Shown: positions 17,253 through 19,470 of the stretch, piece by piece
How the letters are laid out: every line of letters begins with the position of its first letter
How positions within the stretch are numbered: the stretch's first letter is position 1
Origin: Pseudomonadota bacterium
GTDB lineage: Bacteria > Bdellovibrionota > UBA1018 > CAIMNF01
DNA: 43,701 nt
Reading direction: 5' to 3'
Assembly (NCBI GenBank): GCA_027491115.1
Contig: JAIXWV010000025.1
Coordinates: 1-43,701, forward strand
The notes under the pieces: generated by a model
Told to the model about the DNA's origin: nothing
Databases searched by the model: none
What the model saw: the letters and a program-made list of their open reading frames with translations, nothing else
Program-made: the position numbers and the translations under genes

Positions 17253-17723
17253 TCAGGCCGGCTTGCCGGCATGGATCAGGGTCTTGATGTCCATCTTGAA
17301 CAACACTTCGACCTTGTTCGGGAACACGAGCTTTTGGATGATGCCTTCACCGAAAACCGGGTGTTTGATGCGATCACCGGCCAGGAAAGCCTGATCCGCC
17401 CCGTATTCTTTCATGGCTGAGGTGGAAGCGTTCATCTGGCGCATCCACTCGAGCTCCACCGGTACGGTCTTCTCTTCCTTCACCTCGCGGGGAGCGCGGG
17501 CGGTCCGGGTGGTGCTTCCGGGGCTTCCGCGACTGGGAGCGATTCCGCCGGGTTCTTTGACCCCGCGCTTCGGCTTGAAATTGTGCTCGCTTTTGCAGGT
17601 CCTGCACATCACGCGGGCCGGAACAGATCCGACCATCGACATGATCATGTGTCCGAGATCCATTTTACAGCGGGTGCAGTAACAGACAGTATCCTTGCCA
17701 ACCGAGAGTGCCGGGGTGTTCAT
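17253..17723 (-). CDS. zinc-ribbon protein with C-terminal UvrD/PcrA-like Tudor module
   Basis: 156 residues, cytosolic. Residues 14-43 hold two CxxC knuckles (CTRC and CRTC), predicting one structural zinc. A basic, Gly/Ser/Pro-rich linker (about 48-85) follows, then a helical stretch, then residues 115-152: AGDRIKHPVFGEGIIQKLVFPNKVEVLF..IKTL. This last block matches the pattern of the Tudor-like module at the C-terminus of UvrD/PcrA helicases (GDRV.H..FGEG.V....KV.V.F....KTL), which contacts RNA polymerase and repair proteins. It is divergent from uvrC (34 bp apart). The function is not established; a repair or transcription accessory role is inferred. Confidence 0.7.
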   Translation of the reverse strand: MNTPALSVGKDTVCYCTRCKMDLGHMIMSMVGSVPARVMCRTCKSEHNFKPKRGVKEPGGIAPSRGSPGSTTRTARAPREVKEEKTVPVELEWMRQMNASTSAMKEYGADQAFLAGDRIKHPVFGEGIIQKLVFPNKVEVLFKMDIKTLIHAGKPA

Positions 17724-17757
17724 ATATTGGGATTTAGGATACCTTGAATCGGTCTGG

Positions 17758-19470
17758 ATGAGCACCGAAAAACGCCCCGAGAATAAATCGCGTCTCTTGC
17801 AGGAAGCCAAAAAACTGGCGACCTCGCCCGGCGTTTACCTGATGAAGAACGCCTCGGGAGACATCCTGTATGTTGGGAAGGCGAAAAGCCTGAAGGCGAG
17901 GGTCACCTCGTATTTCCAACCCGTGATCCACGAACATCCCCGGACCGAGTTGTTGTTGACCAACGTGGAAACCTTTGAGGTGATCCACACCGGAACCGAG
18001 AACGAAGCGCTTGTTCTCGAGTGCACGCTGATCAAGCGATACAAACCCAAATTCAACATCCGCCTCAAAGACGACAAGCACTACCCGTATCTGCGGGTAT
18101 CGATGGTGGAGCGGTTTCCACGGATCGAGTGGACCCGCAAGGTGAACGAGAGCAAGGCCCGCTATTTCGGTCCGTTTCCTTCGAGTTTCGCCGCACGGAT
18201 CACCTTGCGACTGCTGACCGAGTCTTTCAAGCTCCGGGATTGTTCCGACAACACCTTCTCTCACCGCTCGAGGGCGTGCATCCTGCATCAAATGGGACAA
18301 TGTTCGGCTCCCTGTGTGGGTGCGGTGAACGAGGAGGAATACAAAAATCAGGTGGACGAGGCCTTGCTGGTGCTGGAGGGAAAGGGCGCGGAATTCCTCG
18401 ATGCGCTCCGCGAGCGTATGGCAACTGCAGCGGCTGAAGAACGTTACGAAGAGGCCGCGATCATCCGGGACCAGATCCAGGCTGTCGAGATCGTCTCGCA
18501 GACCCAGTCGGTGATCGACGCCGATACCCGGCTCGACCAGGATGTGTTCGCATTCGAGCAAAAAGAGGGGATTGCTCATGGGGTCGTCCTCCAGGTCCGG
18601 AGTGGCAAACTCCTCAGCGTAAAACACTACGATGTGCAGAATTTCGACGGTTCTCTCGGGCCGGATTCGATTCTGTATGACTTCCTCTCGCAACATGTGA
18701 TCCTGATGCAAGAGGGGAGCGATCTCACGCAGGCGAAAGAGATTCTGGTCGCCCAGCTTCCGAGCGATCACGAACTGCTCGAAAGCGCACTCGGAGTCAG
18801 GATCCGTCTCCCCGAGTCAGAGGTCCAAAAACAACTCGTCAACGTGGCCCGGACCAATGCCAAACTCGCGGTCGAAAGCGCGAAGCGTGAAGGCGCCGGG
18901 CACGGAATCGGTGCTCTTGAAGAGGTCCAGGAAAAGCTCGGACTCGAGAAGCTTCCGAGACGGATCGAGTGCTATGACATTTCAAACACGCAGGGTGAGG
19001 ACTCAGTGGCCTCGCGGGTGGTGTTCATCGACGGAGCTCCGGACAAGAATCTCTACAGACGATACAAGATCAAGACAGTGAAGGGCGCGAACGACTTCGC
19101 ATCCATGCGCGAAATCTTCGACAGGCGTTTCTCGAAAATGGACCTCGGAGCCGGAAACGAAAAGCCCGATCTGGTCATCGTCGACGGGGGTAAGGGCCAG
19201 CTGGCCCAGGCCAAAGCGATCTTCGAGGATCTCGGGATCCAAGGAGTGGATCTGGTCGGTCTCGCCAAGGCCAGAACGGAACGAGATTTCAAGTCCAAGG
19301 AAGTGGTGAGCTCGCAAGAACGGATCTTCATCCCGAACCGGGTGAATCCCGTCCCGCTCTATCCCCATACGCGGGCCTACAAGCTCCTCACTCATGTGAG
19401 GGACGAGGCGCACCGTTTCGCCATCACCTTTCACCGGTCACTTCGCGACAAGCGGAGCATCCGGGGTTGA
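17758..19470 (+). CDS. uvrC: excinuclease ABC subunit C, lacking the C-terminal HhH domain
   Basis: 570 residues. GIY-YIG nuclease domain at the N-terminus (GVYLMKNASGDILYVGKAKSLKARV), Cys-rich centre (CILHQMGQCSAPC), UVR domain binding UvrB (about residues 205-240), and the RNase-H-like endonuclease domain (IECYDISNTQGEDSVAS, DLVIVDGGKGQL, HTRAYKLLTHVRDEAHRFAITFHRSLRDK). It makes the 3' and 5' incisions in nucleotide excision repair. The protein stops right after RDKRSIRG, where other UvrC proteins continue for about 50 residues with a tandem helix-hairpin-helix DNA-binding domain. No such sequence is found in the other frames downstream. ATG 17758 fits the family start. Confidence 0.93.
   Translation: MSTEKRPENKSRLLQEAKKLATSPGVYLMKNASGDILYVGKAKSLKARVTSYFQPVIHEHPRTELLLTNVETFEVIHTGTENEALVLECTLIKRYKPKFNIRLKDDKHYPYLRVSMVERFPRIEWTRKVNESKARYFGPFPSSFAARITLRLLTESFKLRDCSDNTFSHRSRACILHQMGQCSAPCVGAVNEEEYKNQVDEALLVLEGKGAEFLDALRERMATAAAEERYEEAAIIRDQIQAVEIVSQTQSVIDADTRLDQDVFAFEQKEGIAHGVVLQVRSGKLLSVKHYDVQNFDGSLGPDSILYDFLSQHVILMQEGSDLTQAKEILVAQLPSDHELLESALGVRIRLPESEVQKQLVNVARTNAKLAVESAKREGAGHGIGALEEVQEKLGLEKLPRRIECYDISNTQGEDSVASRVVFIDGAPDKNLYRRYKIKTVKGANDFASMREIFDRRFSKMDLGAGNEKPDLVIVDGGKGQLAQAKAIFEDLGIQGVDLVGLAKARTERDFKSKEVVSSQERIFIPNRVNPVPLYPHTRAYKLLTHVRDEAHRFAITFHRSLRDKRSIRG

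Follow-up and report, generated by a model that had tools for sequence, protein, structure and literature searches.

A free-standing zinc-ribbon protein with a UvrD-like Tudor domain encoded divergently from uvrC in Bdellovibrionota

A 43,701-nucleotide contig of a Bdellovibrionota bacterium (JAIXWV010000025.1; this whole stretch is called the window below) carries on its reverse strand, at 17253..17723 (stop codon included), an open reading frame (ORF) for a 156-residue protein that starts divergently from uvrC. What would a small protein that joins a ribbon-like set of cysteines to what looks like the tail of a repair helicase be doing at this place? An original prediction, made from the sequence of the window alone, took it for an accessory factor tying transcription to excision repair or for a stand-alone adaptor, and placed it at 17253-17757. 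The length of 156 residues is correct, but the right end is not: the ORF stops at 17723, and position 17757 is the last base ahead of the uvrC ATG, so that 34 bp of intergenic DNA had been wrongly included.

The best-supported answer is that the gene encodes a stand-alone Tudor adaptor at the interface of nucleotide excision repair (NER) and transcription, a reading that we consider evenly poised between right and wrong. It is supported by the observed architecture of the protein, the homology of its Tudor domain, the conservation of residues that contact RNA polymerase (RNAP) in PcrA, and the genomic linkage of the gene. The ORF is a real gene, well beyond chance; it is present in all 13 genomes of its own taxonomic family (relatives are 55-98% identical), and public titles for close relatives are those of metagenome-assembled genomes of Bdellovibrionales and Oligoflexia. 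Homologues were searched for in genomes within the phylum, while the contig scan was confined to close relatives. A profile match was found in 229 of the 290 genomes sampled from the phylum, and a wider profile matched 95 of the 99 genomes from a different class, some of these matches being a C-terminal-only paralogue or UvrD itself.

Architecture and the C-terminal Tudor-like domain

All full-length homologues have the same parts in the same order: a C2-C2 ribbon, a variable basic linker, an aromatic-bearing helix and an SH3-like barrel. In the window protein, whose parts all lie on the reverse strand, the ribbon occupies residues 13-50 (17574..17687) and includes C16-x2-C19, H25 and C40-x2-C43. 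Its spacing is CxxC-x20-CxxC, and the four cysteines, by which it was delimited, are kept in 106-108 of about 109 homologues. The predicted CxxC/CxxC ribbon is thus present, and it probably binds zinc. It is followed by a basic, Ser/Pro-rich linker (residues about 51-86; 17466..17573), which differs in length and sequence between homologues and is modelled with a predicted local distance difference test (pLDDT) score below 50, and by a short helix seen in the structure models (residues 89-99; 17427..17459). The Tudor/SH3-like domain (residues 104-151; 17271..17414), defined by hhalign comparison with the UvrD Tudor, by conservation and by the model, contains H121, F124, G125, G127, F142, K147 and L149.

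The C-terminal block, GDRIKHPVFGEGIIQKLVFPNKVEVLFKMDIKTL, is patterned like the UvrD Tudor, as had been noted, and profile comparison bears this out. The profile of the family C-terminus matched the UvrD Tudor of sister families with an HH probability of 94% (range 87-94% in two passes), whereas 40 column-shuffled UvrD profiles used as controls reached at most 22% and the profile of the family ribbon gave 0.2% against the same Tudor. In unbiased six-frame genome searches, weak extra matches were often to ORFs of UvrD size (700-770 residues) and involved the C-terminal Tudor part only. AlphaFold2 modelling of the domain from seven sequences produced a helix followed by five strands forming an SH3/Tudor-like barrel with a mean pLDDT of 85; that is, structure prediction did not return a different fold. 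Because only seven usable sequences were available, the ribbon was poorly modelled in the first model and is unreliable there. Taken together, the comparisons support a UvrD-type Tudor as the probable identity of the C-terminal domain.

Family libraries return little for this protein. No family of Pfam, NCBIfam or PHROGs was matched above cut-off; the best NCBIfam matches, weak ones over residues 78-132, were to a pair of UvrD models with E values of 0.02 and 0.1, and a UvrD was the sole PDB match with E no higher than 10. The window protein itself does not match PF21196, the PcrA/UvrD Tudor, and hmmscan of 45 family members found it in seven, none meeting the gathering cut-off (best E 0.027). 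The same scan gave weak matches to DUF3553 (PF12073) in seven members (best E 9e-5), to CarD_TRCF_RID (PF02559) in six and, for the ribbon, to Elf1 (PF05129) in 15 (best E 8e-4, again sub-threshold). A match of the window protein to FAD_binding_3 (E 0.0065) lies under cut-off across the linker and the Tudor edge and was taken as chance. A mobile or phage origin was discarded as well, the protein having no match in plasmids, phages or viral contigs.

How does the protein compare with known Tudor and ribbon proteins? It shares with the PcrA/UvrD Tudor (PF21196; PDB 5DMA) the pattern GDR-x2-H-x2-[FW]-G-x-G ... F ... I-K-x-L, a five-stranded barrel and four RNAP-contact positions. Unlike the Tudors of PF21196, which are borne by superfamily 1 helicases, it stands alone: the Pfam scan found no helicase core in its 156 residues, in agreement with the predicted stand-alone architecture, and the Tudor is fused to a zinc ribbon instead of forming a helicase tail. 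In addition, the loop ahead of the F142 strand is three residues shorter, the C-terminal end is different and the similarity is below the Pfam cut-off. A Tudor module on repair proteins is already known, from UvrD and from DinX, whose DUF3553 domain has been related to the PcrA Tudor and given a possible part in transcription-coupled repair (PMC6511836). DinX is thus a further DNA-repair protein with a PcrA-like Tudor, but it is a Y-family polymerase and a zinc ribbon has not been reported for it. The RID of CarD, CdnL and Mfd is likewise a small Tudor-like RNAP-binding domain; the same C-terminal family profile reached an HH probability of only 9% against the Mfd/CarD RID, and this identity was rejected. 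The ribbon resembles that of Elf1/ELOF1, a C2-C2 ribbon with about 20 residues separating the pairs, but all matches are sub-threshold (that of the member from family f13 scored 14.6 bits, below the gathering threshold of 29.8); the parallel with ELOF1 is a lead. ELOF1 is a transcription-coupled-repair factor of eukaryotes; it is not known to contain a counterpart of the Tudor found in the uvrC-linked protein. Neither the family libraries nor the literature searched contained a zinc-ribbon/Tudor protein that stands alone and is paired with uvrC, and a protein present in most genomes of a phylum but described by no family library is now given a name and a working hypothesis.

RNAP binding by the PcrA of G. 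stearothermophilus drops severely when H681, W684, K712 or L714 is replaced by alanine (PMC5397179). When WKVGDRANHRKWGIG...IAFPSPIGIKRLLAKF of PcrA is aligned with AGDRIKHPVFGEG...VLFKMDIKTLIH of the window protein, these positions correspond to H121, F124, K147 and L149, with F replacing W. H121, F124 and L149 are invariant in 109 of 109 homologues, and position 147 is K or R in 108. A surface that binds RNAP would be expected to show such conservation.

Linkage to uvrC and to a UvrD-family helicase

The partner gene, uvrC, lies at 17758..19470 on the forward strand, with its ATG at 17758 and a 34-bp gap (17724..17757) to the start of our gene. Among 60 loci sampled at roughly one per genus, uvrC is divergent beside the gene in 45, from about nine families (all 21 of L051-L071, L073, and all 23 of L074-L096). 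The start-to-start distance is under 250 bp in 43 of these 45 loci, with an overall median of 69 bp. The same arrangement is found in 13 of 13 loci of the window's own family (f1) and in the 18 best loci of family f2, all 18 having it. By comparison, the other ten neighbours in the window do not recur outside their own family, one dctA excepted. The gene and uvrC are therefore a pair that was kept while the surroundings changed, and the functional relevance ascribed to the uvrC neighbourhood gains support from its conservation across families. In some lineages the block is wider, which also speaks for a place in repair: in 11 loci, uvrB is a few genes away or nearer, and many f15 loci have, downstream of uvrC, the sub-threshold uracil-DNA glycosylase-like gene described below.

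Alignment of the divergent region of five own-family sequences revealed TAGGATA/TAGTATA between the start codons in all five (TTAGGATA at 17735-17741 in the window). Symmetric -10 elements are known from described bidirectional promoters, and this element is possibly a shared symmetric -10 for both genes; since a σ70 consensus scan of the divergent region retrieved no promoter site, we can only infer a shared promoter.

A second arrangement is seen in family f13, which we take to be the Bdellovibrio-type family. There the gene is located upstream of, and on the same strand as, a gene for a Rep/PcrA-like helicase of about 670 residues in 35 of 35 loci, usually no more than 60 bp apart, and this helicase is Tudor-less. 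The gene is thus associated in two distinct ways with genes of excision repair or of the UvrD family.

UvrD itself differs in the window's own family: PF21196 is absent from 13 of 13 of its genomes but present in 30 of 32 other genomes of the order. The own-family UvrD orthologues stop right after the helicase core (...RDFSKNAGRF) and, in the region common to both, share 57% identity with f2 UvrD. The uvrC-linked protein may therefore be the sole UvrD-type Tudor left in the genome of the window. Tudor loss was observed at L173, L178, L179, L183, L191-L195 and others, while nearly all relatives keep the Tudor. In most lineages a Tudor-bearing UvrD and the uvrC-linked protein coexist, so an origin of the latter as a substitute for a lost UvrD Tudor was rejected.

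Candidate functions

If the gene does encode an adaptor, its PcrA/UvrD/DUF3553-type Tudor would dock on a protein partner, most likely the β subunit of RNAP at a β-sheet edge or loop, as PcrA does, and the zinc ribbon on its flexible basic linker would contact nucleic acid or a second partner. The protein would be made alongside UvrC through the tight divergent promoter region and, in other lineages, from an operon shared with the gene for a helicase of the UvrD family. Its part would be to help recruit excision repair or a helicase activity to transcription complexes that have stalled, or to clear such complexes. These steps, including the link to transcription-coupled repair and the choice of partners, are proposed. 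The accessory factor or adaptor first proposed thus keeps its stand-alone and accessory status, the latter from the occurrence of uvrC without the protein, while its contacts and its part in transcription-coupled repair are what we infer. A bolder version, according to which the protein is a dedicated Bdellovibrionota transcription-repair coupling factor, unrelated to Mfd, that would sit on RNAP and recruit or license UvrC-dependent incision or a Tudor-less helicase in a manner analogous to ELOF1, appears unlikely. Mfd-independent coupling of excision repair to transcription, and the weight of the contact between the UvrD Tudor and RNAP, are disputed (PMC8318588). A Tudor that stands alone, keeps the PcrA contact residues and has a link with uvrC that extends across a phylum offers a natural dissection of the UvrD Tudor module, and the question is open to testing in the genetically tractable predator Bdellovibrio.

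Several observations weigh against the adaptor. The conservation of H-x2-F-G-x-G may be partly driven by the fold rather than by RNAP binding. Foldseek searches with the domain model returned mainly Tudor and ribosomal folds, all weak (none with E below 0.3) and mixed, which supports the fold class without singling out UvrD structurally. The TGE motif is a helicase-interaction motif of RpoB and UvrB (PMC8318588), and in B. subtilis it is the site on UvrB at which the PcrA Tudor docks. None of the five full-length UvrB proteins examined from Bdellovibrionota has it; docking on UvrB in the B. subtilis manner is therefore unlikely here, and this route was rejected. There is no uvrC at the gene in families f10, f13, f14 and f16 and in two genera of f15, and since the uvrC block of f15 holds other conserved genes, the synteny may in part be of a general kind. 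Finally, many genomes without the gene keep uvrC. The protein is then accessory at most and not needed for NER, and an obligate NER subunit is ruled out.

The absence of uvrC from the gene in several lineages would suit a different view, that the protein is an RNAP-binding transcription regulator with a role like that of CarD/CdnL, its bidirectional promoter being shared with uvrC by chance and with no direct part in repair. The conserved PcrA-type contact residues and the weak Elf1-like ribbon matches would fit this equally, as would a second paralogue, which has this Tudor behind a Lys/Ala-rich N-terminus and whose gene adjoins those for IF-1 and Tex. We nevertheless regard it as rather unlikely, for it is hard to account, without repair, for a gene linked to both uvrC and uvrB and, independently of these, to a helicase of the UvrD family, and CarD-RID-type proteins already exist in genomes of the order.

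The Tudor-less helicases suggest a further alternative, in which the protein would supply a Tudor in trans to superfamily 1 helicases lacking one, namely the adjacent Rep-like helicase of f13 and the UvrD of the window's own family (PF21196 in 0 of 13 genomes, against 30 of 32 elsewhere in the order). But most lineages hold both a Tudor-bearing UvrD and the uvrC-linked protein, the own-family loss could be incidental, and no fused form was seen; we find this explanation quite improbable.

Divergent genes are often regulator-target pairs, and the protein might accordingly regulate uvrC expression locally, or bind DNA or RNA through its ribbon and Tudor, with no RNAP contact. The basic linker and the weak DNA binding of the E. 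coli UvrD Tudor (PMC7585439) favour this least probable explanation, but a local regulator of uvrC would be unlikely to relocate beside a helicase gene, as in f13, domain scans of the window protein and 45 members matched no helix-turn-helix or other specific DNA-binding domain, and the isolated PcrA Tudor is reported not to bind DNA (PMC5397179).

Other genes of the neighbourhood

Several further genes recur around these loci. Downstream of uvrC in 21 loci of f15 lies a gene resembling the uracil-DNA glycosylase superfamily below the Pfam cut-off (for example L077:8770-9630, plus strand, E 5e-4), possibly encoding a divergent uracil-DNA glycosylase. Converging on uvrC, at L077:8397-8606 (minus strand) and with equivalents in about 20 loci, is a gene for a conserved CxxC protein of about 70 residues with weak Lar-like/zinc-ribbon matches, another undescribed zinc protein of the neighbourhood. 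A putative lipoprotein with a weak DUF3280/DUF2380 match is encoded directly 3′ of the Tudor gene at L057:6398-7081 and in 11 more loci (f2 and f5).

The second paralogue was found in Bdellovibrionia (L237, L239, L240, L243-L251; for example L240:5782-6294). Its Lys/Ala-rich N-terminus is histone-like and has no ribbon, and its gene is typically beside those for IF-1 (72 residues) and the transcription-accessory protein Tex, and near topA in L240. Also across Bdellovibrionia, a protein of about 300 residues that belongs to no Pfam or NCBIfam family (L260:5113-5976, L268:6467-7396) is encoded near fumC, directly 5′ of the Tudor gene.
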